A DNA stretch of 64,000 nucleotides from Gulosibacter macacae (GTDB lineage Bacteria; Actinomycetota; Actinomycetes; Actinomycetales; Microbacteriaceae), in the NCBI RefSeq assembly GCF_003865375.1, contig NZ_RQVS01000001.1, positions 1 through 64,000 of the forward strand, given 5' to 3'. A program made the translations under genes and the position numbers. The notes under the pieces were generated by a model, which saw nothing but the letters and a program-made list of their open reading frames with translations, was not told where the DNA came from and did not search any database. Shown here piece after piece: positions 2,674-63,648 of the stretch (its first letter is position 1; every line of letters starts with the position of its first letter).

Positions 2674-2688
2674 CCAAGGATGTGGCGA

Positions 2689-2730
2689 GGGCCTCAACGA
2701 ACCACCTCGTGGTCGTTGGGGCCCTTCCGC
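2689..2730. terminator. Bidirectional hairpin terminator between convergent genes
   Basis: GGGCCTCAACG and ACCAC on the left pair with GTGGT and CGTTGGGGCCC on the right around a 3-base loop, with one bulged A. It lies 16 bases after the binding-protein stop and 17 before the stop of the minus-strand protease gene, so it probably serves both. The T-tract (TTCCGCTTT) is weak. Confidence 0.75.
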
Positions 2731-2746
2731 TTTCCAGCAGACGCGG

Positions 2747-3565
2747 TTAAAAAACGCCGGGCCAGAGTGTCACGGCAAGGGGATAGCCAAGGAACGCCAC
2801 GAGATCGAGCAAAAAGTGTGCGATGACGAGCGGCATGACTCGACGACGTGCGGGTCGTGCATCCGCACCGCCTGATCTTGGTCGTGACCACCAGACAAAA
2901 AATGCCGCGAACAGGATGCCCATGGCGACGTTGCCGAGCGCCATCGGCACGCCCTGGTAGAGGTGATACGAGCCACGCACGAGCGCCGAGGTGAGGATGA
3001 TCGGCCACCAACCCCAGCCGAGCTGGCGCAGGCGCGTGACCAGGTAGCCGACCACGATGACCTCTTCGATGAGCGCGGCGCGCAGGGCGGCGAGCACGTA
3101 GAGCATCGCCGTCCACCAGGCGAGTTCGCTGTCGGCGGTCACGACCTGAGCGGTGGCACCAGCGAGGCGCGAAACGGCGTAGAGCGCAAGGCCGGGGATG
3201 CCGATGGCTGCGGCGAGGAGGAGGCCGCGGCCGAGGTCACGGCCGGGGGAGCGCAGGTCGAAGCCGAGGCGGCGGAAGCCGGATTCGCGGTGGCTCCAGA
3301 GTAGCCAGATGACGAGCGCGACCGGCATGAGCCTCGCGACGAAAACGACCAGGCGGTTGAGCACGTCGAAGAGCGGGAACGCGCTCACCGCGGGATTGAT
3401 CGCCTGCGTCGTCTCGGCGATCGGGGTGGGGCCCGCGAGCGTTTCGAGGAGCGAGAGGAGGGCGTAGGCGGCCGAGGGGAGGAGCGAGAGGCCGAGCACG
3501 ATCCAGATTTCCCAGCGCAGACGCCGCCGCGCATCGTGGATGCGGAGCGGGCGCGGGGTGGGCAT
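2747..3565 (-). CDS. CPBP family intramembrane metalloprotease
   Basis: Predicted integral-membrane glutamic-type protease of the CAAX/Abi (CPBP) family. Several hydrophobic segments are visible (about residues 20-40, 70-90, 108-130 and the C-terminal third). The core motifs are ALIEEVIVVGYLVTRL (paired Glu, about residue 165), SALVRGSYHLYQG (His) and VIAHFLLDL (His), the expected four-helix active site. In the first motif the Glu pair is followed by VIVVGY rather than the textbook EExxxR; this variant is common in actinobacterial members as I recall. It is a single-gene unit, convergent with the binding-protein gene and divergent from typA. Substrates of this group in Actinobacteria are mostly unknown. 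Confidence 0.85.
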   Translation of the reverse strand: MPTPRPLRIHDARRRLRWEIWIVLGLSLLPSAAYALLSLLETLAGPTPIAETTQAINPAVSAFPLFDVLNRLVVFVARLMPVALVIWLLWSHRESGFRRLGFDLRSPGRDLGRGLLLAAAIGIPGLALYAVSRLAGATAQVVTADSELAWWTAMLYVLAALRAALIEEVIVVGYLVTRLRQLGWGWWPIILTSALVRGSYHLYQGVPMALGNVAMGILFAAFFVWWSRPRSGGADARPARRRVMPLVIAHFLLDLVAFLGYPLAVTLWPGVF

Positions 3566-3623
3566 GGCCGCCAGTTTACGGGGGCGGTGTGGGGGTCTCG
3601 AGACGCGCGCCCGATGCAGGCCC

Positions 3624-3629
3624 TATACT
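3624..3629 (+). promoter_or_regulatory. Likely -10 box (TATACT) of typA
   Basis: TATACT lies 40 bases upstream of the typA start in the divergent gap, which would put transcription start near 3636. I do not see a convincing -35 box at the matching distance, so this rests on the -10 element alone. Confidence 0.45.
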
Positions 3630-3668
3630 TGAACGTCCGCCAATTTCAATCGAAGGCACCCCTAACGC

Positions 3669-5582
3669 ATGACTGCTCCGCTGGCCCATCGTTCCGACAT
3701 CCGCAACGTCGCCATCGTGGCGCACGTCGACCACGGCAAGACCACCCTCGTCGACGCCATGCTCAAGCAGACCCACACCTTCGGCGAACACTCGCACTAC
3801 GAGACCGACGAGCGCGTCATGGACTCGGGTGACCTCGAGCGCGAAAAGGGCATCACGATCCTCGCGAAGAACACCGCGATCCGCTACGACGGCGAGCACG
3901 CCGATGGGCAGACGATCATCATCAACGTCGTCGACACGCCCGGCCACGCCGACTTCGGTGGCGAAGTTGAGCGAGCCCTGTCGATGGTCGACGGCGTCGT
4001 CCTCCTCGTTGACTCGGCCGAAGGCCCGATGCCGCAGACCCGCTTCGTGCTCCGCAAGGCCCTCGAAGCCAAGCTGCCGGTGATCCTCCTCGTCAACAAG
4101 ACCGACCGTCCGGATGCCCGCATCCCCGAGGTCGTCGAAGAAGCCCACGACCTGCTGCTCGGTATCGCCGGCGACCTTGCCGACGATGTGCCCGACCTTG
4201 ACGTTGACGCCCTGCTCGACCTACCCGTGCTCTACGCCTCGGGCCGCGCCGGCGTCGCCTCGACCACGCAGCCCGACAACGGCTCATTACCCGACAACGA
4301 CAACCTCGAGCCGCTCTTCGCCGCAATTCTCGAGCACATCCCGGCCCCGACCTACGACGAGACCGCGCCGCTGCAGGCCCACGTCACGAACCTCGACTCC
4401 TCACCGTTCCTCGGTCGCATGGCGCTCCTGCGCATCCACAACGGCACGCTCCGCAAGGGCGCGACCGTGGCCTGGGTGCACGATGGCGAGACGAGCAATG
4501 TGCGCATCACCGAGCTCCTCGAGACCATCGGTCTCGAGCGCGTGCCCACCGAAGAAGCCGGCCCCGGCGACATCATCGCGATTGCGGGCATCCCCGACAT
4601 CATGATCGGTGACACCATCGCCGACCCGAACGATGTGCGCCCGCTGCCCGAAATCCACGTCGACGAGCCGGCCATCTCGATGACCATCGGCACGAACACC
4701 TCGCCGCTGGTCGGCAAGGTGAAGGGCCACAAGCTCACCGCCCGCATGGTGAAGGATCGCCTCGACCGCGAACTCATCGGCAACGTGTCGCTGCGCGTCA
4801 ACGACATCGGTCGTCCCGACGCCTGGGAGGTGCAGGGTCGTGGCGAACTCGCGCTGTCGATCCTCATCGAGAACATGCGCCGCGAAGGCTTCGAGCTCAC
4901 CGCGGGCAAGCCGCAGGTGGTCACCAAGGAAATCGACGGCAAGAAGCACGAACCGTTCGAGCACACCACCATCGACGTGCCTGAGGAGTTCCTCGGCGCG
5001 ATCACGCAGCTCATGGCGGCCCGCAAGGCACGCCTTGAGGGCATGACGAACCACGGCACCGGCTGGGTGCGCATGGAGTTCACGGTGCCCTCTCGCGGCC
5101 TCATCGGCTTCCGCAGCGAGTTCATGACGCTCACCCGCGGTACCGGTATCGCCAACTCGATCTCGGCCGGCTACGAGCCGTGGGTTGGCCTCATCCAGAC
5201 CCGCGTCAATGGCTCGATCGTTGCCGACCGTGCCGGTGTCTCGACCCCGTTCGCGATGATCGGCCTGCAGGAGCGCATGAGCTTCTTCATCGAACCGACC
5301 GACGAGGTCTATGAGGGCATGGTCATCGGCGAGAACACCCGCGCCGACGACATGGATGTGAACATCACGAAGGAAAAGAAGCTCACGAACATGCGTGCCG
5401 CGAGCTCCGATGAATTCGAGAAGCTCACCCCTCCGCGTAAGCTCACGCTGGAAGAGTCGCTCGAATTTGCTCGCGAAGACGAGTGCGTTGAGGTGACGCC
5501 CGAGAAGATTCGCATCCGCAAGGTCGAACTCGACGCCACCACCCGCGCCCGCGCAACCTCGCGAGCCAAGAAGGGCAATTAG
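3669..5582 (+). CDS. typA: Translational GTPase TypA/BipA
   Basis: Ribosome-associated GTPase of the EF-G/LepA superfamily, involved in ribosome assembly and stress or cold adaptation. All G motifs are present: AHVDHGKT (residues 18-25), EREKGITI, DTPGHADF and NKTDRPDAR. They are followed by the beta-barrel domain and the EF-G-like C-terminal half with the TypA-specific region RGLIGFRSEFMTLTRGTGI. The length of 637 residues matches the family. The ATG start follows a modest leader (TATACT box upstream). The next gene starts 4 bases after its stop, suggesting co-transcription with the small membrane protein and perhaps fdxA and dapC. Confidence 0.97.
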   Translation: MTAPLAHRSDIRNVAIVAHVDHGKTTLVDAMLKQTHTFGEHSHYETDERVMDSGDLEREKGITILAKNTAIRYDGEHADGQTIIINVVDTPGHADFGGEVERALSMVDGVVLLVDSAEGPMPQTRFVLRKALEAKLPVILLVNKTDRPDARIPEVVEEAHDLLLGIAGDLADDVPDLDVDALLDLPVLYASGRAGVASTTQPDNGSLPDNDNLEPLFAAILEHIPAPTYDETAPLQAHVTNLDSSPFLGRMALLRIHNGTLRKGATVAWVHDGETSNVRITELLETIGLERVPTEEAGPGDIIAIAGIPDIMIGDTIADPNDVRPLPEIHVDEPAISMTIGTNTSPLVGKVKGHKLTARMVKDRLDRELIGNVSLRVNDIGRPDAWEVQGRGELALSILIENMRREGFELTAGKPQVVTKEIDGKKHEPFEHTTIDVPEEFLGAITQLMAARKARLEGMTNHGTGWVRMEFTVPSRGLIGFRSEFMTLTRGTGIANSISAGYEPWVGLIQTRVNGSIVADRAGVSTPFAMIGLQERMSFFIEPTDEVYEGMVIGENTRADDMDVNITKEKKLTNMRAASSDEFEKLTPPRKLTLEESLEFAREDECVEVTPEKIRIRKVELDATTRARATSRAKKGN

Positions 5583-5586
5583 CCGG

Positions 5587-5991
5587 ATGCGCTCGGGTCG
5601 CGTCGTCGAACAACTCGTCACCTTCGGGTCGTTTGCCCTGTTCGGGGTGATTGCCGGAGTGATCACGACGTTCGCGCACCGAGTGCGATTCCAGCTCGGC
5701 GAGGTGATGATCTGGCACGGCATCGTGATCGCGCTCCTTGCCGTGTTGCTCATCACCATTGGCCTGCGCGTCTACCTCACCGAGAAGCTGCCCGCGATTG
5801 CCTTCGCGGTCGGTGTGGTTGGCGCTGTGTTTGCCCTGTCGACGTCGGGGATGGGGCACTCAGTCGTCATCCCGGGCGGCGGCCTCGGCGCCGTCGGGCT
5901 CATCTGGGTCTACGGCTCGGCGATCGCCGTCGCCCTGCCCGCAATCTGGCCGAGCGTGCCGCAACGCCGACCGGCCACACCCTCGGAGTAG
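5587..5991 (+). CDS. Small four-helix membrane protein (possibly DUF6113 family)
   Basis: A 134-residue protein of unknown function with about four hydrophobic segments (residues about 8-28, 40-60, 68-86 and 100-122), short loops and a polar tail ending QRRPATPSE. It starts 4 bases after typA and precedes the ferredoxin gene by 39 bases, so it is probably in the same transcription unit. Small membrane proteins occupy this position in related Microbacteriaceae; I think they are annotated DUF6113, but that is memory, not a search result. No catalytic motif is visible. Confidence 0.75.
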   Translation: MRSGRVVEQLVTFGSFALFGVIAGVITTFAHRVRFQLGEVMIWHGIVIALLAVLLITIGLRVYLTEKLPAIAFAVGVVGAVFALSTSGMGHSVVIPGGGLGAVGLIWVYGSAIAVALPAIWPSVPQRRPATPSE

Positions 5992-6030
5992 GGTAGAAGC
6001 TCCCATCCCGCTCAAGAAGGAGACTCGGTC

Positions 6031-6354
6031 GTGACCTACGTTATTGCCCTGCCCTGTGTCGACGTGAAGGATCGCGCTTGCGTTGACGAGTGCCCCGTCG
6101 ACTGCATCTACGAGGGCGAGCGGATGCTCTACATCCACCCCGACGAATGCGTCGACTGCGGTGCGTGCGAGCCGGTCTGCCCGGTTGAAGCGATCTACTA
6201 CGAAGACGACGTGCCCGAGGAATGGGCCGACTACTACCGCGCAAACGTTGACTTCTTTGAAGAGATCGGTTCGCCCGGCGGCGCCGCAAAGGTCGGCGTC
6301 TACGACTTCGACCACCCACTCGTCGCCGCGCTCGCGCCCAACCAGAACCAGTAG
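6031..6354 (+). CDS. fdxA: Ferredoxin, 7Fe-8S type
   Basis: Small electron carrier with two iron-sulfur sites. The sequence shows the paired cysteine clusters expected of the bacterial 7Fe ferredoxin: C9, C17, C21 and C25 in the first block ([10 protein letters not shown]) and C40, C43, C46 and C50 in the second ([12 protein letters not shown]). An acidic C-terminal tail follows, also typical. The start is GTG 6031, preceded by AGAAGGAGA (6015-6023). dapC begins 6 bases after the stop; I recall the same ferredoxin-dapC order from Mycobacterium (fdxC-Rv1178). Length 107 residues is normal. Confidence 0.95.
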
Positions 6355-6360
6355 CTCCGC

Positions 6361-7476
6361 ATGGCGCTCGGCCCACTGCCCGACTATCCGTGGGACCTCC
6401 TGAAACCGATCCGTGCGGCGGCTGGCGAGCATCCCGATGGCGCCATCGATCTCACGATCGGCTCGCCCGTCGACCCGACGCCGGAGGTGATCCGCGCGGC
6501 GCTCGCCGAGGCGACCGATGCGCACAGTTATCCGACCACCCTCGGCTCGAACGAGGCGCGGCAAGCGATTGTCGATTGGTTTGCGCGGCGCCGCGGAGTT
6601 CCCGGGCTCACGCTTGACGAGACGATGGTGACCATCGGCTCGAAGGAATTCGTCGCGAACACCGCGCACTTTCTTGGCCTTGGCGAGGGCGATGTCGTCG
6701 TGCATCCCTCGGTGGCCTACCCGACCTACGACATGGGTGCCGTGTTCGCTGGCGCGAAGGCCATCGCCGAAGATGACCCGGCGAAATGGCCGGATGCGAC
6801 CAAACTCGTCTGGCTGAACTCACCCGGCAACCCCGATGGCCGCGTGCTCGATGTGGCGGCATTGCGGGATGCGGTCGCCCGCGCCCGCGAACTCGGTGCG
6901 GTGATCATCAATGACGAGTGTTACGCCGAACTTGGCTGGGATGACTGGGCTGACCGCCGCATCCCGTCGATTCTTGACCCCGAAGTCGTCGGTGACTCGC
7001 GCGCCGGCGTGCTCGCCTCATCCTCGCTCTCGAAGCGGTCGAACCTGGCCGGCTATCGCGCGGCGTATGTAGCCGGCGACCGCGAGGTGCTCGCGCGCCT
7101 ACTTGTTGCCCGCAAGCACGCGGGACTGATGATGCCGGCGCCGGTGCAACACGCGCTCGCGGTGGCGCTGGGGGCGGATGCGGCAGCTGACGAGCAGCGG
7201 GACCGGTACCGCCGCCGTCGCGAGCGGCTCAAGCCTGCGCTTGAAGCCTGGGGCCTGCGCATCGAGCACTCCGAGGCTGGCCTGTACCTCTGGGGTACGA
7301 CCGGCGCGGACTGCTGGCCGACGCTCTCGTCGCTGGCCAGCATCGGCATCATTGCTGGGCCTGGGCAGTTCTACGGCTCGGCGGGGCAGCAGTACATTCG
7401 CGTGTCACTCACGGCGAGCGACGTCGATATTGACCGCGCCGCTGAACGGCTCGAAGCGGCCGTGCCTGGTGACTAA
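6361..7476 (+). CDS. dapC: Succinyldiaminopimelate transaminase
   Basis: PLP-dependent class I/II aminotransferase that makes N-succinyl-LL-2,6-diaminopimelate from N-succinyl-2-amino-6-ketopimelate in the succinylase branch of lysine and meso-diaminopimelate synthesis. Visible features: substrate/PLP region LTIGSPVDPTPEVI near the N-terminus, WLNSPGNPDGRVL (residues about 150-163), DECYAELGW, and the Schiff-base Lys in SSSLSKRSNLAGYR. The length (371) fits actinobacterial DapC. It follows fdxA by 6 bases and lies on the same strand and close to dapD and dapE, which supports the specific assignment over a generic aminotransferase. Confidence 0.93.
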   Translation: MALGPLPDYPWDLLKPIRAAAGEHPDGAIDLTIGSPVDPTPEVIRAALAEATDAHSYPTTLGSNEARQAIVDWFARRRGVPGLTLDETMVTIGSKEFVANTAHFLGLGEGDVVVHPSVAYPTYDMGAVFAGAKAIAEDDPAKWPDATKLVWLNSPGNPDGRVLDVAALRDAVARARELGAVIINDECYAELGWDDWADRRIPSILDPEVVGDSRAGVLASSSLSKRSNLAGYRAAYVAGDREVLARLLVARKHAGLMMPAPVQHALAVALGADAAADEQRDRYRRRRERLKPALEAWGLRIEHSEAGLYLWGTTGADCWPTLSSLASIGIIAGPGQFYGSAGQQYIRVSLTASDVDIDRAAERLEAAVPGD

Positions 7477-7514
7477 AGCTTTGTAGTGAACGGCAATCAC
7501 TTCGCCGCGGTCGT

Positions 7515-7531
7515 TGTTCACTCCGTGAACA
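7515..7531. promoter_or_regulatory. Inverted repeat in the gltA leader (possible operator)
   Basis: TGTTCAC and GTGAACA form a perfect 7-base inverted repeat separated by TCC, about 90 bases upstream of the gltA start in a 146-base gap. The size suits a dimeric transcription factor. The binding protein is unknown and no terminator-like T-tract follows. Confidence 0.4.
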
Positions 7532-7622
7532 CAGCCTGCCGACCAGTAGGCTAGTGCGAGGGCTTCGGCGCGTCACGAGCGGGTCGGCCTTCCCGCATCC
7601 CGTCACGTCCACAGGAGGTTCC

Positions 7623-8948
<1,326 letters not shown>

Positions 8949-8956
8949 GTAGCGCC

Positions 8957-8992
8957 AAAAGGGCCGACCTGAGGAATCGGGTCGGCCCTTTT
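8957..8992. terminator. Rho-independent terminator after gltA
   Basis: AAAAGGGCCGACC pairs with GGTCGGCCCTTTT across a short loop, 9 bases after the gltA stop. The A-run on one side and T-run on the other make it usable in both directions, also for the convergent dapD. Confidence 0.9.
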
Positions 8993-9046
8993 GCGTTGGT
9001 GTTGCGGAGCGCGTCGGGGGATCGCGGGACGCGATCCGACGGCTAG

Positions 9047-10012
9047 CTAGTGAAGCATCGAGTTGAGCTCGATCCCTCGGCCCTCACGCGAAATCGCCTC
9101 GACCGCACCGCTCAGCGAGTTACGGCGGAACAGCAAGCTCGGCACATCAGCAAGCTCTGCGGCCTTGACCGTGCGCGCATTACCGTCGGCATCGGGATGC
9201 TGGGGGAGGAGCACCTTGGTTCCCGCCGTCACATAGAGTCCCGCCTCCACAACGCAATCGTCACCAAGCGAGATGCCGAGACCCGAGTTCGCGCCGAGGA
9301 GCGAGCGCTCACCCACGCGCACGCGCTGCGTGCCACCGCCCGAGAGCGTGCCCATGATTGAGGCGCCGCCACCAATGTCGGAGCCCTCACCAACGACGAC
9401 ACCCTGCGAAATGCGTCCCTCAACCATCGAGGTGCCGAGCGTGCCCGCGTTGAAATTCACGAAGCCCTCGTGCATCACGACAGTGCCGGGCGCGAGGTGC
9501 GCGCCGAGGCGCACGCGGCCACCGTCGGCGATGCGCACCCCCACGGGCACGACGTAGTCGAGCAGGCGCGGAAACTTGTCGATGGCGTACACCTGGATGC
9601 CCGCCCGACGCAGTTGCGGCAGCCGTGCGCGCACATCATCGGCCGGCATCGGACCGAGGTCGGTCCACGCGTTCGTCGGCAGGTGCCCGAAGATGCCGTC
9701 GAGGTTGATCGTGTTCGGCACCACGAGCAGGTGCGAGAGCAGGTGCAGGCGCAGATACGCATCGCCAACCGAACTCACCGGTGTATCCAGATTGCTCTCG
9801 ACGAGCACCGGCCGCAGACGAACGCCGCGGCGCGCATCCTCGTGCGCACCATCGGCAAGTTCGGCCGGAGCGAGCGAGCGGTCGCGGCCCGCGGGCACCT
9901 CGCCGAGGCGGGGGTCGGGGAACCAGCAGTCGAGCATGGCGCCACTGTGGTCGTAGGTGGCGAGCCCGTCGGCCCAGGCGGAACGCGTCGTTGCGGTGGC
10001 AGGCGAAGTCAT
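9047..10012 (-). CDS. dapD: Tetrahydrodipicolinate N-succinyltransferase
   Basis: Transfers succinyl from succinyl-CoA to tetrahydrodipicolinate, the step before DapC. The C-terminal half is a left-handed beta-helix of hexapeptide repeats ([44 protein letters not shown]) typical of the trimeric enzyme; the N-terminal region has the actinobacterial form ([27 protein letters not shown]). I chose the ATG at 10010-10012 ([13 protein letters not shown], 321 residues). A longer open frame runs into the tandem repeats at 10055-10100 and is unlikely to be coding. It is divergent from dapE, with the repeats between them. Confidence 0.95.
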
Positions 10013-10054
10013 GGTTCCAGCGTAGTGGGGCTGGGGTGGTGCGCGTGGGCGGTG

Positions 10055-10100
10055 CTTCGAGGGCCTCAGCACGCGCACTTCGAGGGCCTCAGCACGCGCA
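10055..10100. repeat. Tandem 23-base repeat, two copies (repeat family A)
   Basis: Two perfect head-to-tail copies (10055-10077 and 10078-10100) of a unit beginning CTTCGAGGGCCTCAGCACGC, in the dapD-dapE divergent gap. The core GCTTCGAG..CCTCAGC recurs at 37319-37364, 42171-42236, 49551-49629 and 55009-55025, always between genes. Confidence 0.85.
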
Positions 10101-10114
10101 ACTAGACTTGCCGC

Positions 10115-11263
10115 ATGTCTGTCGCCACGCCGATCGTTCCGCTCGACCTCACGGCCAGCTCCGTCGAACTCACTCGGATGCTCTGCGACATTCCCTCAGA
10201 ATCGGGCGACGAAGCGCGAATCGCGGATGCGGTCGAAGCCGCCCTCGCGCACTACCCGCATCTGCAGGTGCTGCGATTTGGCAACACCATTGCCGCCCGC
10301 ACCACACTTGGGCGGGCACGCCGCGTCGCCATCGCTGGGCACCTCGATACGGTGCCGATCAACGGTAATGTGCCCACTCGATTTGAAACGCTCTCGCCCG
10401 AAGATGCCGCCGCCGATGTCGCCGGCACGATCCCCGGCGAGTACCTCTGGGGCCGCGGCACGGTCGACATGAAAGCCGGCGTCGCGGTGCAGCTCAAGCT
10501 CGCCGCAGAACTCGTCAACCCCGTCGTCGACCTCACCTGGCTTTGGTACGAGAACGAGGAAACGAGCGCCGAGCTCAACGGACTCGGTTTGCTCGCGGCA
10601 GCGCATCCCGAACTCTTCGAAGCGGACTTCGCCATTCTTGGTGAGCCGACGATGGCGCAGGTCGAGGGTGGATGCAATGGGTCGATTCGCGCTGAGATTT
10701 ACACCCACGGACGCCGCGCGCACTCAGCCCGAGCCTGGGCCGGGGTCAACGCGATTCACGCCGCAGCGCCGATTCTCGCCAGACTTGCGGCCCACGAGCC
10801 GGCCACGGTCTCGGTCGAGGGACTCGACTACCGCGAGGGGCTCAACGCCGTCGGGATCCGCGGAGGTGTGGCTGGCAATGTCATTCCCGATGAATGCGCT
10901 GTGCACGTGAACTACCGCTTCGCCCCCGATAAGCCGCTCGAAGAGGCTGAGGCGCAATTGCGAGCGTGGTTCGATGGCTTCGAGATCGACATCCTCGACC
11001 GCTCGGGCGCCGCCCGCCCCGGCCTTGACGCGCCGCTCGCACAGGAGTTTCTGCGGGCAGTGGGCGGTGTCGCGAAACCCAAGTACGGATGGACCGATGT
11101 GGCCAGGTTCTCGGCCCTCGGCATCCCCGCTGTGAATTACGGCCCCGGCGACCCGCAGAAAGCGCACGCCGATGATGAGCGCGTGCGACTCGACGAGATC
11201 ACTGCCGTTGAGCGGGGGCTGCGCGACTGGCTCACCGGCGAGGATGCGGGAGCCACCGCTTGA
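10115..11263 (+). CDS. dapE: Succinyl-diaminopimelate desuccinylase
   Basis: Zinc metallohydrolase (M20 family) that removes succinate from N-succinyl-LL-diaminopimelate. Metal and catalytic motifs are in place: GHLDTVP (His and Asp), [11 protein letters not shown] (bridging Asp), YENEETSA (catalytic and metal Glu) and the dimerisation-domain segment [13 protein letters not shown]. The length (382) fits the actinobacterial DapE. With dapC and dapD nearby this completes the succinylase branch. The next gene overlaps its stop by 4 bases (TTGA), suggesting translational coupling. Confidence 0.95.
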
Positions 11264-12540
11264 GCGTGCGCGCGACCATCCCGGTGTTGCCGGCGCGTCA
11301 CGTCGATGCGGCGATTCGGCGCGAGGATGCACCGCTCGCGAGTACCGCACATCCGTTCGTACTGCGCCTGCTCGCCATCCCGACGGTGTGGCAGCTCATC
11401 GCGATCTACTTCGCGACGCGAGTTGTCACCACCACGATCATGCTCGTGTTCGCGGCGAATCAGCCGGAGACCTGGCAGACGCCCGCCCAGCCCGATTACT
11501 TCACGTTCGCGAATATTTGGGATGCGGTTTGGTACCGGAGGATCGGCGAGGGCGGCTATCCGCGGGAGCTTCCCATCGGTGACCACGGTCGGGTTACCGA
11601 GAATGCCTGGGCGTTCATGCCGGTGTTCCCAGCGATCGTGCGGGTCATCTCGCTCATCACCACGTTGCCATTCCCGGTCGTGGCGGTGCTCGTGTCGGTG
11701 GCCGCGGGGCTTGCGACCGTGTTCGCGTTTCACCGGCTGCTGCGCCGCTTTGTCGGCGAGCGCACGGCGCTGTTCGCAGTGCTCTTGCTCTGTCTTGGCC
11801 CAGTGTCGCCGATGTTTCAGGTCGGCTATGCCGAGGCGCTGCACTTTTGGCTCCTGTGCGAGCTGCTTATCTTGCTCGTTGATCGGCGCTGGCTCGAGAT
11901 GTTGCCGATCGTGCTTCTCGCGTCGCTCACCCGGCCCACGGGGCTCGCCTGGGCATTCACGCTGCTACTTGTGATTTTGCACCGGTATTGGCAGGCGCGC
12001 GTGGCGCGACTCGAGCGGTTTGACGCGCGCGAGCAGCGGCAGGCCTGGATCGCCGCGTTCTTCTCGGGGTTCGCCGGACTCGCCTGGCTGGCGATTGCCG
12101 GATTCGTCACCGGCCGACCGTTCGGCTACCTCGAGACCGAGATGGCGTGGCGCAATCACTACACCTCGGGCGCCGAAACGCTGCCGTTCACGGCGTGGTT
12201 CTGGGCAGGTGACTTCTGGTTTGGTCAACCGCTCGGCACGATTCTCGTGGTCGCTGTGGTGATCGGGGTGATCGCCTGGTTCTCGGCGCCATTTATGCGT
12301 CGCTTCGGCATCGAGATCAGGATGTGGGGCATCGCCTACTTCTCATATCTGTTCGCGGTGTTCTACCCGCAATCATCGATCTTCCGTCTCTGCTTCCCGC
12401 TGTTCCCGGCGCTCGCGCCGGTGGCGTTGCCGCAATCGCCGGTGTATCGCGTGGTGGTGTCGTTGCTTGCGGTGGCGGCGCAGGTGGCATGGCTCACCTG
12501 GATGTGGTTTGTCATCGGGCACGACTGGACGCCACCGTAA
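11260..12540 (+). CDS. Polytopic membrane protein, GT-C/PIG-V-like mannosyltransferase candidate
   Basis: Integral membrane protein of about 426 residues with roughly 9-11 hydrophobic helices. After the first helix it has a large outside loop with the acidic/aromatic text NIWDAVWYRRIGEGGYP, the W-D-x-x-W/Y-x-x-I-A-x-x-G-Y pattern seen in PIG-V-type and other GT-C glycosyltransferases that use lipid-linked sugars. MPVFPAIVR and GYAEALHFWLL also fit. It would act at the cell surface, for example in glycolipid or protein mannosylation; donor and acceptor cannot be inferred. Start is TTG 11260 or GTG 11266, overlapping or just after the dapE stop. Confidence 0.72.
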   Translation: MSVRATIPVLPARHVDAAIRREDAPLASTAHPFVLRLLAIPTVWQLIAIYFATRVVTTTIMLVFAANQPETWQTPAQPDYFTFANIWDAVWYRRIGEGGYPRELPIGDHGRVTENAWAFMPVFPAIVRVISLITTLPFPVVAVLVSVAAGLATVFAFHRLLRRFVGERTALFAVLLLCLGPVSPMFQVGYAEALHFWLLCELLILLVDRRWLEMLPIVLLASLTRPTGLAWAFTLLLVILHRYWQARVARLERFDAREQRQAWIAAFFSGFAGLAWLAIAGFVTGRPFGYLETEMAWRNHYTSGAETLPFTAWFWAGDFWFGQPLGTILVVAVVIGVIAWFSAPFMRRFGIEIRMWGIAYFSYLFAVFYPQSSIFRLCFPLFPALAPVALPQSPVYRVVVSLLAVAAQVAWLTWMWFVIGHDWTPP

Positions 12541-56963: not shown

Positions 56964-58199
56964 CTAGAGCGTGAGCTCAGGCGGCAACTGCCCAACGCCG
57001 AGCTGGCTATTCGGCTGACGCGTGAGCTCATTCTCGCGCGAACGCTCGAGGTAGGGCGTTGCCCGCTCGAGCTGGTGCGAGAGATTCGCGATGGTGGCCG
57101 CAAAGTTCTGATTCGCCGTCGCGCGGAATTGCTCCACCTGGTCGATCGTCGCGAACACATTGTCGTAGGCCCGCTGCAACGTCTCAAGCGAGACGCCGGA
57201 AGACACGGCTTGCTGCTGGATGCGCGCCGTATTGTCACGGAGCATCGCCGAGGTCTTCTCGATCATTGCGTTCGTGGTCGAGTTCACCGCATCAATCTGG
57301 TCGAGCACAATGCGCTGGTTCTCAAGCGCCTGTGCGACGACGACGGCCGTGCGCAATGCCGTCATCGTGGTCGTCTTTGCTCGCTCAACACCGTCAATGA
57401 GCTTGAGGTTGTTGTCCTGGATGAGATCCATCGACAGGTACGACTGCACGCTCACGGCAAGCTGCGTCTGCACATCAACGTGGCGCTGGCGCACCGCAAA
57501 GAGCACATCCTGTTCCATCGCTGAGGCGGCCTGCACATCTCCGGCACCCGCGAGATCTTCGATCTTGCGCACGACCGCCGCATCCAGTTCATCGAGCAAG
57601 CCCGAAAGCTGCTTGAGCTGCACCATCGAATCCCACAGCGCCTTGCGTTCAATGCCGAGTGCGGCGTTGTCCTTGCGCAGCACATCCTGGCCGCGGTCAA
57701 GCGAGAGCAGAATCGTGTTGAGCTGCTCCTGGTTCGTCTCGTACTGCTTGAAGTAGCGCTGCAGTTGCTTGCCGCCCGGCAACGCGCTCGCCAGCCGACC
57801 TAGGAACGACTTCTCACCGGGCGCGAGCTCTTCGACCTTGTTGCGCAGATCCACGAGCGAACGCGACACCTCGGCGGCATTGCCATCGCCACCGGCGGCC
57901 TTTGCCTGCGCAAGGCTCTTGTCGAGAAAGCGACTCGAGGCGGTCGATGACGACTGAATCTCGGTGCGCGCAACCTGCTGAATCGCCCGCACCTGCTCGG
58001 TGTACTCGGGTGTCTTCGGCCGCATCGTCGAGAGGTGGTCCACCCAGGTGTCGGCGCGACGGCGCAGATCGAGCGCGGTTGCCGGATCGATGTCGGGCAA
58101 CATGTCGGGAGCCTTCTCGGGCTCGACGGCCTCAACCGGCGGCGTGGCCGGAATCGGCTCGAGTTCTGCGGCGCTCGGCGGTTGCAGCTTGTCGTTCAT
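56964..58199 (-). CDS. TelA-like toxic anion resistance family protein
   Basis: A 411-residue, mostly helical cytoplasmic protein of the TelA/KlaA/YceH family. Typical text: DIDPATALDLRRRADTWVDHL, SLVDLRNKVEELAP, LPGGKQLQRYFKQYETNQEQLNTILLSLDRGQDVLRKDN, MEQDVLFAVRQRHVDVQTQLAVSVQSYLSMDLIQDNN and a C-terminal helix block. The family is named for tellurite resistance, but its mechanism is unclear. Here it is the last gene of a four-gene minus-strand operon and overlaps the XpaC-like gene by 4 bases. In Bacillus subtilis a TelA-like gene (yaaN) also neighbours xpaC. Confidence 0.92.
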   Translation of the reverse strand: MNDKLQPPSAAELEPIPATPPVEAVEPEKAPDMLPDIDPATALDLRRRADTWVDHLSTMRPKTPEYTEQVRAIQQVARTEIQSSSTASSRFLDKSLAQAKAAGGDGNAAEVSRSLVDLRNKVEELAPGEKSFLGRLASALPGGKQLQRYFKQYETNQEQLNTILLSLDRGQDVLRKDNAALGIERKALWDSMVQLKQLSGLLDELDAAVVRKIEDLAGAGDVQAASAMEQDVLFAVRQRHVDVQTQLAVSVQSYLSMDLIQDNNLKLIDGVERAKTTTMTALRTAVVVAQALENQRIVLDQIDAVNSTTNAMIEKTSAMLRDNTARIQQQAVSSGVSLETLQRAYDNVFATIDQVEQFRATANQNFAATIANLSHQLERATPYLERSRENELTRQPNSQLGVGQLPPELTL

Positions 58200-59008
58200 G
58201 CAAGGCTCCTCGGATCGGTGTTCGGGTTGAGGTCGGGTGCGTCGCCAGGGTTCGGGGTGCCAGGGTTCGGGACGCCAGGCAGGCTCGCCGGTCCGGCGTC
58301 ATACTGCGGCGAGTCACGAAGCGGCTGGTCGAGGTCAAGCACCGACGCGGTACTCGCCTGCTCAAAGCGCAGCTGCAAAAAGGCGGCGTGCTCATAGACG
58401 CTCTGGGTCGTCCCGCGCACCACATCGGTTTCGATGCGGTCAAGTGCTTCGCCGAGGATGCCCGCCTGCTCTTCCAGCGCCACCACATTCTTTTCGACCT
58501 GGGCACGCGAGGCGCGGCCCGAAAAGGAGGTGTGCATCCGGTCGTTTTCAATGGCGAGATTCACGATCGTTGGCAGGTAGTCGGTCGCAAGCACGTGGAG
58601 CATGTGCACATCGCCGTCGAGCTGGGTGCGCTGTTGCAGCGCCGGGGTGATCGCGAGGGTGCGCACACCCCGGATGAGGTCGCCCAGTTTCTCGTCAAGG
58701 TGCGTGCCCGACCACAGCGGCCGGCTCTCAAGACGGCGCAGCGTGTTTTCCATGGCGTTTGCGCTCGTGAGCACGGCCTGCAGGGTCTCGGGCACCGTCG
58801 TTGGCGCGACGCTGGTGCTGCCGATTTCAAGCATCCGCGGCGCCATTGGCGTGAAGAGCATGCCGGCGCCCGCGCCGAGCGCGGCACCGAGCGCGATGCC
58901 AACGGGAGGTGCGAAGCCGAGCAACAACACTGTGGCGGCCGCTGTGCCGACGCCGACGAGCGCGCCGGTGACGGTAGGTGCCAGCCACTTTCGCGGGGAT
59001 GAACTCAT
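58196..59008 (-). CDS. XpaC-like membrane protein
   Basis: A 270-residue protein, a candidate for the 5-bromo-4-chloroindolyl phosphate hydrolysis (XpaC) family. The N-terminus carries two hydrophobic segments (WLAPTVTGALVGVGTAAATVLLL and GIALGAALGAGAGMLF), then helices (LQAVLTSANAMENTLRRLES, THLDEKLGDLIRGVRTLA, VEKNVVALEEQAGILGEAL) and a Pro/Asp-rich tail. No catalytic motif is visible; XpaC itself is of uncertain function. The pairing with TelA is the main support. Overlaps of 4 bases with TelA (downstream) and the VWA gene (upstream) suggest strict co-expression. Confidence 0.75.
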   Translation of the reverse strand: MSSSPRKWLAPTVTGALVGVGTAAATVLLLGFAPPVGIALGAALGAGAGMLFTPMAPRMLEIGSTSVAPTTVPETLQAVLTSANAMENTLRRLESRPLWSGTHLDEKLGDLIRGVRTLAITPALQQRTQLDGDVHMLHVLATDYLPTIVNLAIENDRMHTSFSGRASRAQVEKNVVALEEQAGILGEALDRIETDVVRGTTQSVYEHAAFLQLRFEQASTASVLDLDQPLRDSPQYDAGPASLPGVPNPGTPNPGDAPDLNPNTDPRSLA

Positions 59009-60618
59009 AGGTATCCCCGGATCTCACGGAACGCCGCCGCGAGCGACTCGGATTTCGCGTCGAAGCTGCGACCACCGGTGAGTTCGGCGAGGCGCTCGAG
59101 TTCGTCGGCGTTTGAATCGCCGAACTTCACGGTAAACACGGGAATCTCGCGCGCCTCGGGATGCTGCGCGACGAAGTCCTCGTACCAGCGCTCGAAATCG
59201 CGAGCCGACATACCTTCGTTGCTCTCACCATCGGTGAACAGCACGATTGACGAAATCGTGTCACCGCTCGCGTTCGCCAGCGCATCCTCGTAGGCGGTGG
59301 CAACGGTGGTGTAGACCGAGGTGCCGCCGTAGGGGCTGTAGCTACTCACATGCGAGTTGATTTCGCGCAGGGCAGCGTCGTAGCCGGCAGTGTCGGCGGG
59401 AATCTCGACGGTGAACTCTGACTTCACCGAGCTGGAGAATTCGAGATAGGTGATGCGTTCACGCGGCTGCAGTCGCAGCAGCGCGCTCGAGGTGCCATCG
59501 CCGTGGCTACCCGAGAGCACATCGAGGGCCGCGCGCAGGTCGTCCATGCGGCTGCCGTCACCCATCGACCCCGAAGTGTCGATGGCGAAGACCATGTTCG
59601 AGGGCTTCTTCACCTGGCTGAGCCAGGTCTCGAGCAGCGTCTGCACCGTCTCGAGCTGGTTCGGGAACGGCAGTTCGAACACCGAAGCGTCCATGCTCGG
59701 GGGAGTGGCGGTGGTGCGGCGGTGCGTGTCGTCGGCAATGCGCTGTTGCACGTCATCGCGCAGCAGGTAGTCGACAACCTTCTGGTAGTTCGCGGCGGTC
59801 TCTTCGTCGGCGCCCTTGAGGAGGGTGAGCGGGTAATCGCTTGTGACGACGCCGTCGGAAGGAATCACGATGCTAAGGGGCTGACCGTTCACCTGCACGG
59901 TCTCGAGTACCGATTCGTAGTTGAAGATGCCATCGACCGCGTCGGGCTGCTGCGCGAACTTGTCGACGAGCCAGCCCGAAGAACCGGAGGCAAGCTGCTG
60001 GCCACTCGCGAACTGCTGGAGTTGCGGGGTCGTTGCGGCGATGTCACCGGTCGCGAGCACGGTGCCGGTACCCGAGAGCGCCGTGGTCATCTGCACGAGC
60101 GTCGTGAATCCCGAGTTTGATGAGATCGGGCTGGTCATGCCGTAGGTGAGTTGCCCCTGGCTGATCGCATCGACCACTTCTTGCCAGGTGGGCTGGTTGT
60201 CGGCCGTCCAGCCGAGTCGCTGCGCCACCTCAGACTTCAGGCCGAGCACGACCGGCGAGCGCATGATCGATTCGCTCTTGTCGACGAGGTTCAGGCCCTC
60301 GGGAAAGAGCGTGAGGTAGCGGTTCGAGGGGAACCACGTTGCCTGCCAGGGCTTGTCTCCCGATGAGAGCAGCGCCTCGGTGCCGTCGAGTGTGCCGATG
60401 TATTCGAACTCGAGTGTGACCCCGGTCTCGCGGGTCATATCAGCAAGGATCGGCTCGAGGTCTTTCACCTCGCTCCCGGCGAGCACTTTGATGGTCGGGC
60501 CGCCGCCGAGCAGCCCGGCACAACCGGTGAGAAGCGCCGGCACGGCGATGACGACGGCAAGCAGACCCGCGAGGCGTGCGCTCGCCTTCGTGACGAACTT
60601 GCGAAGCTTGGCGGTCAC
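59005..60618 (-). CDS. Binding-protein/VWA fusion lipoprotein
   Basis: A 537-residue surface protein. N-terminal lipoprotein signal: LLAVVIAVPALLTGC (Cys about residue 33). Residues about 40-320 look like a type-2 periplasmic binding domain (IKVLAGSEVKDLEPILADMTRET, FPSNRYLTLFPE). From about residue 335 a von Willebrand A domain with an intact metal site follows: MVFAIDTSGSMGDG (DxSxS), YGGTSVYTTV (Thr) and VLFTDGESNEG (Asp). This fusion is known as substrate-binding and VWA domain-containing protein; ligands are not known. It is cotranslated with the XpaC-like gene and the binding-protein-like gene, overlapping both by 4 bases. Confidence 0.9.
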   Translation of the reverse strand: MTAKLRKFVTKASARLAGLLAVVIAVPALLTGCAGLLGGGPTIKVLAGSEVKDLEPILADMTRETGVTLEFEYIGTLDGTEALLSSGDKPWQATWFPSNRYLTLFPEGLNLVDKSESIMRSPVVLGLKSEVAQRLGWTADNQPTWQEVVDAISQGQLTYGMTSPISSNSGFTTLVQMTTALSGTGTVLATGDIAATTPQLQQFASGQQLASGSSGWLVDKFAQQPDAVDGIFNYESVLETVQVNGQPLSIVIPSDGVVTSDYPLTLLKGADEETAANYQKVVDYLLRDDVQQRIADDTHRRTTATPPSMDASVFELPFPNQLETVQTLLETWLSQVKKPSNMVFAIDTSGSMGDGSRMDDLRAALDVLSGSHGDGTSSALLRLQPRERITYLEFSSSVKSEFTVEIPADTAGYDAALREINSHVSSYSPYGGTSVYTTVATAYEDALANASGDTISSIVLFTDGESNEGMSARDFERWYEDFVAQHPEAREIPVFTVKFGDSNADELERLAELTGGRSFDAKSESLAAAFREIRGYL

Positions 60619-61832
60619 GGGGTGGCTCCTTGATCGTCAGGTTGGTCGTCGGTCGGCGGCGAGATGGTGGTCGGTTCGACCGTGGCCGGGGGCGCGCCCG
60701 AGACCGAATAGGCCTCGCCAATGCGGCCGAGCAGGTAGTCGAGCATCTCGTAGCTCGGTTCCTGCGCGAGATTCACGAACGTGGATGCGCTCGGGTACGC
60801 ATCCTGCAATTGCTCGCGCTCGAGGAAAGCATCGAAGGCGGCAGCGTTTTGGCCCTGCGGGCGGAAGCCGTGTTCGGCGAGGAGATCGGCGAGCTTCGCA
60901 TCGGTTTCGAGGAGCTGCATCACCGCTTGGCCCTGCTCTGAAAACGTGACGCCGGTGTGCACCGAGAAGATCGTCGGTGAGGGGTAGGCGAGCACCATGC
61001 CGGGGCGAATGCGAGTGTTTTCCTTGAGCTGTTCTTCGAGGAACTGGCCCTCGTAGACCATCACCATCGGCACCGCGCCCATACCTTGTGAGAGGTAGTC
61101 ATCGAATGGCGCGGTCGACGACGCTCCGGCGTAGCCCTGGGCGACGAAGAGCTTCGTGAGTAGCGGCAGGTTCGCGTCGGCCTCAGCCTGTGAGGTGACG
61201 ACGTTGTTGCCGTTGAGCACGTACGACGAAAGCGCGACGTACATACCGGCCGAGTTCGAGGAGCGAATGTCGGTCGAGGTGATGAGCACGCTGCGCGGCG
61301 ACTCGTAGACGCCTGCGGCGCCCGGCAGCTTGTTCCAGCGGGCATCCTGCGAAACAAGGTCGAGATAGGCGGCCATATCGATCTGCCAGCGACCGGATGC
61401 ATCCTGGCTCGCGACGTTCGATTGCGCGAGCACCTGCATGATCGGTTCGAAGGTCGCGATCGCGAGCGGTGAGAAGAAGGGCTTGTGGGTTGAGACCACC
61501 TCGCCACTGTGGTTCGTCGCAATATTCTGGGCGGCGATCTCGGATGCAGGGAAGGCGAAGGCTTGCTCGGTGAGGCCCTCGAGCGAGGCCATACGCCACG
61601 AGCCCGATTTTGAGACCTGCACGTCGTAGCCGTGTTCGGCGAAGACTTCTTTCACCGCTGGGTCGTTGAAGAAGGCTTCCTTTTCGGAGCCGACGACGCC
61701 CTTGACCACGGTGAGTCCACCGAGTCCACCCGGACCCTGGCGACCGAGGCCGGTGAGCTGCACGATGAGCACGGCCACGATGCCGAGCACGATAAGTGCG
61801 ATGCCGATGTAGTGCGGCGCACGGAGTTTCAC
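60615..61832 (-). CDS. Membrane-anchored binding-protein-like protein
   Basis: A 405-residue protein, first gene of the TelA operon. One N-terminal helix (HYIGIALIVLGIVAVLIVQLTGLG) anchors an extracytoplasmic domain whose strand/helix pattern (LTVVKGVVGSEKEAFFNDPAVKEV, VPMVMVYEGQFLEEQLKE, LAYPSPTIFSVHTGVTFSEQGQ) resembles a type-2 solute-binding fold, with a Pro/Thr/Asp tail. I recognise no named family. GAGGAAGC lies in front of the ATG. The four genes 61832 to 56964 each overlap by 4 bases. A perfect 24-base palindrome lies 74 bases upstream. Confidence 0.75.
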   Translation of the reverse strand: MKLRAPHYIGIALIVLGIVAVLIVQLTGLGRQGPGGLGGLTVVKGVVGSEKEAFFNDPAVKEVFAEHGYDVQVSKSGSWRMASLEGLTEQAFAFPASEIAAQNIATNHSGEVVSTHKPFFSPLAIATFEPIMQVLAQSNVASQDASGRWQIDMAAYLDLVSQDARWNKLPGAAGVYESPRSVLITSTDIRSSNSAGMYVALSSYVLNGNNVVTSQAEADANLPLLTKLFVAQGYAGASSTAPFDDYLSQGMGAVPMVMVYEGQFLEEQLKENTRIRPGMVLAYPSPTIFSVHTGVTFSEQGQAVMQLLETDAKLADLLAEHGFRPQGQNAAAFDAFLEREQLQDAYPSASTFVNLAQEPSYEMLDYLLGRIGEAYSVSGAPPATVEPTTISPPTDDQPDDQGATP

Positions 61833-61905
61833 GTTGCTTCCTCCTGCTGTTTTGGGAATCCCAACACAGCTAGGTGAACGTCAATCTCCGCGCGCCGCAC
61901 GATTT

Positions 61906-61929
61906 CATGACGCGCTATAGCGCGTCATG
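61906..61929. promoter_or_regulatory. Perfect 24-base palindrome (possible operator)
   Basis: CATGACGCGCTA followed by its exact complement, with no spacer, directly after the stop of the ThDP enzyme (61933) and 74 bases before the start of the TelA operon, both on the minus strand. With no loop and no T-tract it is a weak terminator candidate and fits a dimeric repressor site for the operon better. The factor is unknown. Confidence 0.6.
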
Positions 61930-61932
61930 CGG

Positions 61933-63648
61933 TTAGAACGCCTTTTGGCGCTGGTCGGTGATGAGGTGCAGCAGCGCGAACTGCTTGCCTTCCTTGACCA
62001 CCTCGACAGCGCGACGCACTGCATCCGGCACCTCGGCGTCGGTCTCGACGCGAATGCCGACGCCGCCGAATGCTTCGGCGAGCTTCGCGAAATCGGGGTT
62101 TTGCAGCTGCGTACCCGAGACGCGACCCGGGTAGTCGCGTTCCTGGTGGGTACGAATCGTGCCGTACTCCTGGTTGTCCGAAACGATCACGAGCGGCGTC
62201 GCGCCGTACTGCGTCGCGGTCGCCAGCTCCTGACCGTTCATGAGGAACTCGCCGTCACCGGCGATGGTCACCACGAAACGCTCCGGGTACTGCAGTGCCG
62301 CGGCGACGGCCGAGGGCACCGAGTAACCCATCGAACCGTTGCGCGCCGAGATCATCGAGGCGTAGCCGCGAGTGGGGAAGTAGCGGTGCGCCCAATTCGT
62401 GTGCTCGCCGGCACCGAAGGTGACCATTGCATCCTGAGGAAGGAGGGGCACGAGGTTTGCCATGAGCGTGTCCATCGACGCCTTGCCCTCGCCGGGAGTT
62501 GCCGACGGCAAGGCCGAGAACTCTTCCTGCTGACCGCGCAGCTCCTGCGTCCACTCACGCCACGAGTCCTTGACCGGCAGGTCCATGCGCACGAGGTCGC
62601 GGATGAACACATCCGGCTTCGAGACGATCTGGTGTGAGAGCGGGCCCGAGCGGCCGCGCAGGTCGGGGTCGATGGTGACGATGAAGTTGCGCTGATCCCA
62701 GTTCTGGCGGCCGGTGAAGCCCGAGGTGATCACGTCGCCGGGAACGGTGCCGACGAACACGATGAGGTCGGTCTCTTCAAGCAGCTTGTTCGAGAATGCC
62801 GGGCGGCCGTAGCCGAGCGGGCCGACATATGACGGTGAGTCAAACGGCACCGTGCCCTCGCAGCGCCATTCGGCGGCCGCGGGCAGTGAGTGGTCTTCGA
62901 GCCACTTGGTGAACTGTTCGGCACCGGCGTGGGTCCAGTCGTTACCGCCGAACACGAACAGGGGCTTCTCTGATTCGAGCAGCGATTGACGCAGCGACTT
63001 CCAGTCTTCAACGGTCATACCGCCTGATGCGACGGGAATGTACGGGTGAATCGCGCCGTCGACCTCCATCTTGATGATGTCTTCGGGGAGGCCCACGACG
63101 ACCGGGCCGGGGCGACCGGCCGAGGCTGCGAACATGGCTTCGGCGACGACTTCGCTCGCGCGGGCCGGGTGGTCGAGCACCATGACGCGCTTCGCTCCCG
63201 AGCCGAACCACTGCTTCGGGTCGAACTCCTGGAACGCTTCTTTCTCACGGTGTTCGAACGGGATGAGGCCGACGAAGAGCACGAGCGCGGTCGAGTCCTG
63301 CCAAGCGGTGTGGAGGCCCACGTGGGCGTTCGCGGCACCGGGGCCGCGGGTGACCATCGCGACGCCAGGAATGGGGAGAAGCTTGCCGTCGGCTTCGGCC
63401 ATGTAGGTGGCGCCACCCTCGTGGCGGCAGATGACGGTCTCGATCGATGACTCGTGAAGGCCGTCGAGCACGTCGAGGAAGCTCTCGCCCGGCACGATGT
63501 GCACGCGCTCAACGCCGTGTGCTTCAAGCGATTCCACAATCACGTGGCCGGCTGACTTGCGCTGCGTCGTCTGGTGCTTGGCTGCCGTCACCGCCTCGAT
63601 GGTGGGGATGGCTCCGGTCATCGGCGCGCTCGAATCAAACTTCCTCAT
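61933..63648 (-). CDS. ThDP-dependent enzyme, acetolactate synthase-like
   Basis: A 571-residue thiamine diphosphate enzyme. The N-domain begins GHVIVESLEAHGVERVHIVPGESFLDVLDG and has RHEGGATYMAEADGKL with the conserved Glu pair region (catalytic Glu expected in the GES part), the middle domain covers VEDWKSLRQSLLESEKPLFVFGG, and the C-domain has the ThDP-Mg motif GDGEFLMNGQELATATQYGATPLVIVSDNQ (GDG...N). It belongs to the acetolactate synthase/oxalyl-CoA decarboxylase-like superfamily; it lacks a paired small subunit here, so biosynthetic AHAS is unlikely, and the true substrate is unknown. GAGGA precedes the ATG. It is divergent from the Cys-rich gene. Confidence 0.87.
   Translation of the reverse strand: MRKFDSSAPMTGAIPTIEAVTAAKHQTTQRKSAGHVIVESLEAHGVERVHIVPGESFLDVLDGLHESSIETVICRHEGGATYMAEADGKLLPIPGVAMVTRGPGAANAHVGLHTAWQDSTALVLFVGLIPFEHREKEAFQEFDPKQWFGSGAKRVMVLDHPARASEVVAEAMFAASAGRPGPVVVGLPEDIIKMEVDGAIHPYIPVASGGMTVEDWKSLRQSLLESEKPLFVFGGNDWTHAGAEQFTKWLEDHSLPAAAEWRCEGTVPFDSPSYVGPLGYGRPAFSNKLLEETDLIVFVGTVPGDVITSGFTGRQNWDQRNFIVTIDPDLRGRSGPLSHQIVSKPDVFIRDLVRMDLPVKDSWREWTQELRGQQEEFSALPSATPGEGKASMDTLMANLVPLLPQDAMVTFGAGEHTNWAHRYFPTRGYASMISARNGSMGYSVPSAVAAALQYPERFVVTIAGDGEFLMNGQELATATQYGATPLVIVSDNQEYGTIRTHQERDYPGRVSGTQLQNPDFAKLAEAFGGVGIRVETDAEVPDAVRRAVEVVKEGKQFALLHLITDQRQKAF

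Follow-up and report, generated by a model that had tools for sequence, protein, structure and literature searches.

What does a TelA protein do in an operon whose other products include two proteins resembling extracellular solute-binding proteins (SBPs)? TelA proteins are found in both bacteria and archaea, and to our knowledge no mechanism has been established for them. The question is raised by four genes on the minus strand (positions 56964 to 61832) of a 64,000-nucleotide stretch of Gulosibacter macacae DNA (contig NZ_RQVS01000001.1, positions 1 to 64,000), which at its full length is called the window below. The gene set and its conservation are established, as are the homology of the two SBP-like proteins, a VWA metal site, hydrophobic segments and a lipobox cysteine in the products, and PHO-box-like elements in relatives. 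Judging from the sequences, and with somewhat less than even confidence, we propose that the module would constitute an envelope-spanning, transporter-less surface receptor, in which two SBPs and a VWA domain are joined via an XpaC-like protein to TelA and act in envelope or phosphate stress. The operon and its upstream region comprise the following features (aa, amino acids; MIDAS, metal ion-dependent adhesion site):

60615..61832, minus strand: SBP1, a membrane-anchored solute-binding-like protein (405 aa) with a hydrophobic segment at residues 9-27 and no lipobox
59005..60618, minus strand: SBPVWA, a lipoprotein (Cys33; 537 aa) with an SBP domain and a VWA domain
59614..60492, minus strand: SBP_bac_11/8-like SBP part of SBPVWA, spanning roughly residues 43-335 (approximate boundaries)
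59044..59598, minus strand: VWA domain (SBPVWA residues 341-525), whose MIDAS-type residues are D347, S349, S351, T433 and D463
58196..59008, minus strand: XpaC-like protein (270 aa), a hydrophobic N-terminal region followed by a domain with a DYLPT motif
56964..58199, minus strand: TelA (PF05816; 411 aa), without a hydrophobic segment
61873..61879, minus strand: GTTCACC half-site 5' of SBP1, a single unit of a PHO-box-like repeat whose second unit at the 11-nt period is not recognizable

A conserved four-gene module

Each gene overlaps the next by 4 bp (GTGA, ATGA, and ATGA); the first-pass annotation of this DNA had described such an overlapping operon, and its coordinates proved exact when reread. 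How often the four genes occur together had been set beforehand as a test that could refute that description, and the outcome favors it. A scan of genome contigs with an SBPVWA alignment recovered 581 stretches, of which 559 were confirmed, and the full set is present in 63 of the best 80 of these 559 loci, the sample used for the wide locus counts below. Individually, SBP1 is found in 76 of them, TelA in 64, and the XpaC-like gene, after profile iteration, in 70, with the XpaC-like matches placed at or just past the 3' end of SBPVWA. Two arrangements account for the 63 complete loci, namely, SBP1-SBPVWA-XpaC-TelA (23) and SBP1-TelA-SBPVWA-XpaC (40), genes being counted within about 6 kb without strict adjacency (SBP1 of L164 lies about 1.8 kb apart); 31 of 41 TelA/SBPVWA junctions allow a reading in which the two genes overlap by 4 bp. 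A third order, SBPVWA-XpaC-SBP1-TelA, occurs in two genomes of another group in the phylum (G275 and G295). The 17 incomplete loci comprise seven with SBP1-SBPVWA (Nocardiopsis, Actinorugispora, and one contig end), six with SBP1-SBPVWA-XpaC (two Microbacterium loci among them and one contig end), one lacking SBP1 at a contig end in a metagenome-assembled genome of Caldilineaceae, and three with SBPVWA alone (two Actinocorallia loci and one contig end).

The association also holds at the level of whole genomes. Among 148 genomes of the same class (the host's own included), full-length SBPVWA exceeds 300 bits in 17; SBP1 is present in all 17 and in 2 more genomes, and all 20 such SBP1 places adjoin SBPVWA to within a few kilobases. 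Of the 17 SBPVWA genomes, 16 have a TelA above its cutoff, compared with 11 of the 131 others (Fisher P = 1.9e-13, uncorrected for kinship); TelA lies in the SBPVWA cluster in 10 of the 17, lies elsewhere in the genome in 6, and is absent from 1 (G074). In G068 (L113:5480-7036) and G144, an SBP1 homologue lies on a long open reading frame, and SBPVWA is unmatched throughout the genome at E ≤ 1e-5. In a thinner draw from the phylum, SBPVWA exceeds 200 bits in only 3 of 119 genomes, host included, and the module is therefore patchy. Beyond Actinomycetota, two betaproteobacterial plasmids, from Sphaerotilus and Variovorax, carry the full four-gene set, and a Deinococcus taeanensis plasmid stretch has SBP1, SBPVWA, and the XpaC-like gene, with no TelA in that stretch. 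On the Variovorax plasmid (L234, 2325-16972), the module is flanked by a flotillin/OB-fold gene pair and by Wadjet-annotated genes.

Could the module serve in defense against phages? The Wadjet-annotated neighbors on the Variovorax plasmid would fit such a role, and phage resistance has been associated with ter/TelA systems. Against it, a PADLOC search with the four proteins yielded nothing at E 0.1 (two weak matches, at E 0.11 and 0.3, both involve the XpaC-like protein), SBPVWA is unmatched in 50,697 phage records, and chromosomal neighbors are shared within the genus. We consider an anti-phage module very improbable, and assignment to a known defense system was dropped in view of the unconvincing PADLOC result and the phage records without a match.

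Within the genus, a single-sequence search recovered SBP1 in 6 of 10 other genomes, compared to none of 29 from other genera. All four genes stand together at five of these six loci; the sixth (L014) has three genes, and its contig ends before TelA. At one of the five, SBPVWA is spread across three reading frames (L012:7040-8623, minus strand), which reflects either decay or sequencing error. The surroundings are partly shared, with a thiamine pyrophosphate (TPP)-enzyme gene at four of the six loci (one partial) and a beta-lactamase-fold gene on the other side at four of six. In the window, the TPP-enzyme gene (61933-63648) lies upstream of the operon, and a perfect 20-bp palindrome, TGACGCGCTATAGCGCGTCA, occupies the interval between them (61908-61927) as a candidate terminator or operator. 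A promoter/terminator consensus scan gave no signal clearly exceeding that of shuffled sequences; a plausible Shine-Dalgarno-like stretch, judged by eye, precedes every start but that at 59008, which has a weak one.

Two binding proteins, a VWA domain, and the XpaC-like/TelA pair

None of the four proteins exceeds an NCBIfam cutoff. By Pfam, the 59005 product contains a VWA domain (PF00092; 49.3 bits against a cutoff of 23.8) and subthreshold matches to SBP_bac_8 and SBP_bac_6 (SBP_bac_8, 19.9 bits against 27), and the 60615 product, SBP1, matches no Pfam family at E ≤ 1; neither window protein is thus an SBP by Pfam cutoff. The families were also studied through wide alignments that include the window protein: 45 rows for SBP1 (from 44 of 76 loci), 44 for SBPVWA (43 of 80), 42 for the XpaC-like protein (41 of 70), and 36 for TelA (35 of 64). 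Here SBP_bac_11 (PF13531) matches 30 of the 44 SBPVWA members at E ≤ 0.01 (best, 1.7e-18) and 6 of the 45 SBP1 members at E ≤ 1 (best, 2.4e-5). Profile-profile comparison (hhalign) of SBP1 with the SBP part of SBPVWA gave 89% with an E value of 2.4e-6, the SE, SNS, and YE motifs of the two being aligned. This homology makes two of the operon products related binding proteins, in agreement with the first-pass annotation. SBP1 has no solved-structure relatives of note, and profile comparison detects no similarity between it and the XpaC-like protein (58196).

Hydrophobic segments were delineated by the Kyte-Doolittle scale rather than with a topology predictor. In 43 of 45 members, SBP1 has an N-terminal hydrophobic segment that falls inside the first 60 residues, and a regular-expression search found a lipobox in none of the 45. 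In SBPVWA, Cys33 is kept in 43 of 44 members, the remaining row being trimmed or gapped at that position.

The MIDAS motif has the form DxSxS...T...D, and its five residues in SBPVWA are invariant in all 44 rows, which bears out the earlier reading of a VWA fusion with an intact metal site. The best solved-structure sequence matches of the VWA domain include CLCA proteins, inter-alpha-trypsin inhibitor heavy chains, and alpha-2/delta. A conserved metal site could also be taken to mean that the VWA protein and TelA load a divalent metal onto secreted proteins during their maturation; TerC-family proteins, including one encoded in the Bacillus subtilis yce operon, do aid exoenzyme metalation. 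The TerC gene of the host, however, lies on a different contig, and the 25 largest clusters of neighbor genes include no exoenzyme family that recurs beside the module, leaving such a metalation role improbable.

The XpaC-like label stood in part. The 58196 product matches neither PF10112 (XpaC) nor any other Pfam family at E ≤ 1; PF10112 is not among the 25 of 40 families listed for the 42 aligned members, of which at most 1 could match it, weakly; and its cutoff is passed in none of the 148 class genomes. Pfam alone thus failed to give an XpaC identity, which was recovered through synteny and profile comparison. An hhalign comparison with six XpaC-type proteins from other actinobacterial genomes gave 78.9% (E = 1.6e-5, 83 columns), with controls at 0.4% and 1.2%. 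Genes matching PF10112 occupy the slot directly after SBPVWA in G275 and G393 (39.7 and 39.8 bits; cutoff, 29.8) and, below the cutoff at 22.3 bits, in G295. A YLP motif is common to the XpaC-like members and the XpaC-type proteins. The profile-profile likeness, the equivalent gene slot, and this motif together suggest that the 58196 product is XpaC-like without being a member of the XpaC family as such. A hydrophobic segment lies inside the first 60 residues of 40 of its 42 aligned members, with two segments in 24 and one in the window protein.

TelA is identified with a large margin (PF05816 in 56964; 237.2 bits, cutoff 30) and is without a hydrophobic segment in 33 of 36 aligned members. 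The earlier placement of an XpaC-like and TelA pair inside the cell or at the membrane is supported. Against solved structures, the two give weak matches, chiefly coiled-coil or designed-helix. Published work connects such pairs to the envelope: disruption of Listeria lmo1967 raised susceptibility to nisin 4-fold and to tellurite 2-fold (PMC12791056, citing Collins 2010), and B. subtilis xpaC-yaaN belongs to the core sigma-W regulon (PMC3498285). In G459 (L252), a PspA gene, assigned by Pfam, and a Pfam-positive XpaC-TelA pair are about 5 kb apart, and the same holds in G195 (L253), where PspA is assigned by sharing the opening sequence of the G459 gene.

PHO-box-like elements upstream of the module

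Two observations go beyond the earlier claims, the wide spread of the module described above and a PHO-box-like element 5' of it in several families. A GTTCACC-like heptamer recurs 5' of SBP1 within the genus. Scored on both strands, a repeat of two GTTCACC units with an 11-nt period reaches at least 12 of 14 upstream of SBP1 in 22 of 76 loci, against 0, 2, 3, 3, 2, and 2 loci at periods of 8, 9, 10, 12, 13, and 14; the count is partly circular, as the motif was first noticed in these loci, and the other periods and a background of 1.5% among 1520 random windows from the same loci serve as a guard. With groups assigned from record titles, the box is found in 13 of 15 Pseudonocardiaceae loci and in 9 of 45 others (binomial P = 2e-8, kinship ignored). 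According to two papers, the Streptomyces PHO boxes consist of two direct repeat units of 11 nt (PMC7866108) and of repeats of GTTCACCC (PMC7244524).

The exact box pattern has 20 sites in 8 genomes, 7 of which had been picked for a heptamer already seen, and the reversed pattern has none. The module itself accounts for four of the 20, which lie 5' of it; further sites stand before pstS (Pfam assignment in L259; 57 to 62% identity to the L259 gene in L266, L267, L268, and L274), phoU (Pfam assignment in L260; L269 has the same opening sequence), and, in opposite orientation, a PHO4 transporter gene (L258); 8 of the 20 are without a phosphate assignment. Across 11 genomes of the genus, boxes with one mismatch number 67 versus 10 for the reversed pattern, and one of the seven in the host genome precedes its pstS, the remaining six having no assignment. 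On this sequence evidence, the operon is probably PhoP induced under phosphate starvation in several actinobacterial families.

A possible surface receptor, rival explanations, and known relatives

The published link of TelA and XpaC to the envelope, combined with the anatomy of the proteins, is the basis for proposing a path from receptor to TelA, and the absence of a permease and an ATPase from the operon is the reason for favoring a receptor or protector over an importer. The four products would form one envelope-spanning assembly. Outside, SBP1, held by its N-terminal helix, and SBPVWA, held by its lipid, would trap a small ligand that is probably an anion, a phosphorylated molecule, or a metal-bound one. 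The divalent-cation site of the VWA domain could engage SBP1 in its ligand-bound form, the likeliest partner, and thereby report binding. The membrane segment or segments of the XpaC-like protein might relay this signal to cytosolic TelA, which would in turn protect or remodel the membrane or cell envelope. Phosphate starvation would set the system in place through PhoP in several actinobacterial families.

Several observations weigh against this proposal. Certain genomes (Nocardiopsis) have kept SBP1 and SBPVWA but show neither TelA nor XpaC in the surrounding 6 kb or so. The window operon retains only the half-site at 61873-61879; none of the seven one-mismatch boxes of the host genome is at the operon, and only one of the seven genus copies, L014 (G002), has such a box 5' of SBP1. 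The box is found in none of the 16 Atopobiaceae/Gordonibacter loci, 7 of the 9 boxes in the remaining non-Pseudonocardiaceae group do not share the strand of the gene and are the weaker for it, and none of the 27 TelA genes of the class scan has an upstream box (score of at least 12), TelA being module internal in 9 of these genomes. Neither SBP resembles PstS in a low-power comparison with five PstS sequences, and a PstS-like identity was accordingly dropped. Finally, at 14 of the 16 Atopobiaceae/Gordonibacter loci, a gene for an ATP-binding cassette (ABC) ATPase shares the strand of SBP1 and ends 0.14 to 0.62 kb 5' of it, being itself preceded at 12 to 13 of these loci by genes for a permease, an NMT1-like (NMT1/THI5-like) SBP, and a thiamine-binding-family protein (such gene sets are seen, for example, in L131 and L140 at about 1200-4500).

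These Atopobiaceae genes are the best evidence that the module instead contributes orphan parts of an importer, whose SBPs would supply a permease encoded at another locus with its substrate (phosphate, an oxyanion, a thiamine precursor, or something else), with TelA and XpaC assisting the transporter. The SBP-superfamily likeness of both proteins, a PHO-box-like control suggestive of nutrient scavenging, and Vibrio plasmids on which TelA stands beside vWA, SBP-annotated, ABC ATPase, and permease genes are also in keeping with import. However, the operon itself has neither a permease nor an ATPase; outside Atopobiaceae, 15 of 64 loci have ABC-ATPase-cluster genes in their flanks, but never closer than 1.1 kb to the module and without a consistent side or strand; only Atopobiaceae have the recurrent permease family; the five PstS sequences show no similarity; and we know of no importer with an SBP-VWA architecture. 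Import is accordingly rather unlikely in our estimation.

A further possibility is protection against toxic oxyanions such as tellurite or arsenate, which would be needed most when phosphate transporters are induced; the SBPs would bind the anion outside and TelA would act inside. The family name of TelA, an SBP of the SBP_bac_11 type, whose family includes molybdate and sulfate binders, and the PHO-box-like control are all compatible with this, as is the tellurite susceptibility of the Listeria mutant. Yet that effect is below the one on nisin (PMC12791056), the host has no TerD, and reductase, efflux, and methylation genes are all missing from the operon. A dedicated oxyanion defense is thus unlikely.

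Returning to the proposed receptor, TelA/XpaC stress modules are already known, and the new element is the extracellular half, of which we found no study. The literature searched yielded no report combining TelA with XpaC, VWA, and solute-binding proteins, although an earlier mention in comparative genomics of Ter/TelA systems is possible; NCBI annotation already names two of the pieces a "toxic anion resistance protein" and a "substrate-binding and VWA domain-containing protein." The module points to extracellular proteins with which TelA might act and to phosphate limitation as a possible inducing condition, and the function of TelA can therefore be tested by binding, deletion, and expression. 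If the proposal is true, the known kinds of solute-binding protein would be joined by one that functions independently of a transporter. The broadest form of the claim, that this is an undescribed class of transporter-less, metal-dependent surface receptor in which an XpaC relay gives TelA a defined input and which a phosphate-starvation regulator deploys in several actinobacterial families, is speculative, and we hold it with more doubt than belief.

Among known systems, xpaC-yaaN of B. subtilis and lmo1966-lmo1967 of Listeria likewise pair an XpaC-like protein with TelA and are linked to envelope stress, but in the passages that treat them they are pairs without an SBP or VWA gene, and the window XpaC-like protein misses the Pfam XpaC model. 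SBP_bac_11-type SBPs are akin to the module through the matches to 30 of 44 SBPVWA members, from which it differs in the VWA fusion, the helix-anchored SBP1, and an operon without a permease or ATPase. CLCA, inter-alpha-trypsin inhibitor heavy chains, and alpha-2/delta have similarly complete VWA metal sites, a likeness limited to the VWA domain. The ter-type systems (TerD, TerC, and TelA), with which the first-pass annotation had compared the operon, share TelA and a short XpaC-like match; on a Curtobacterium plasmid (L230, 4199-9942), TelA lies in a ter cluster that also has TerD and DUF475 genes and such a match (33 bits). In the window, by contrast, the VWA domain and an SBP form one protein bearing a lipoprotein signal, and a classical ter system was rejected for this host, whose genome has no TerD. 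Two Vibrio plasmids (L233 and L235, about 1465-11590) carry genes for an ABC ATPase, SBP- and OmpA-annotated proteins, a vWA protein, TelA, an NMT1-like SBP, and an ABC permease. Their operon differs in its separate VWA protein, its OmpA domain, its ABC ATPase and permease, and SBPs that the SBP1 and SBPVWA profiles miss, but as in the module described here, TelA accompanies vWA and solute-binding-annotated proteins, and it may represent a Gram-negative counterpart.

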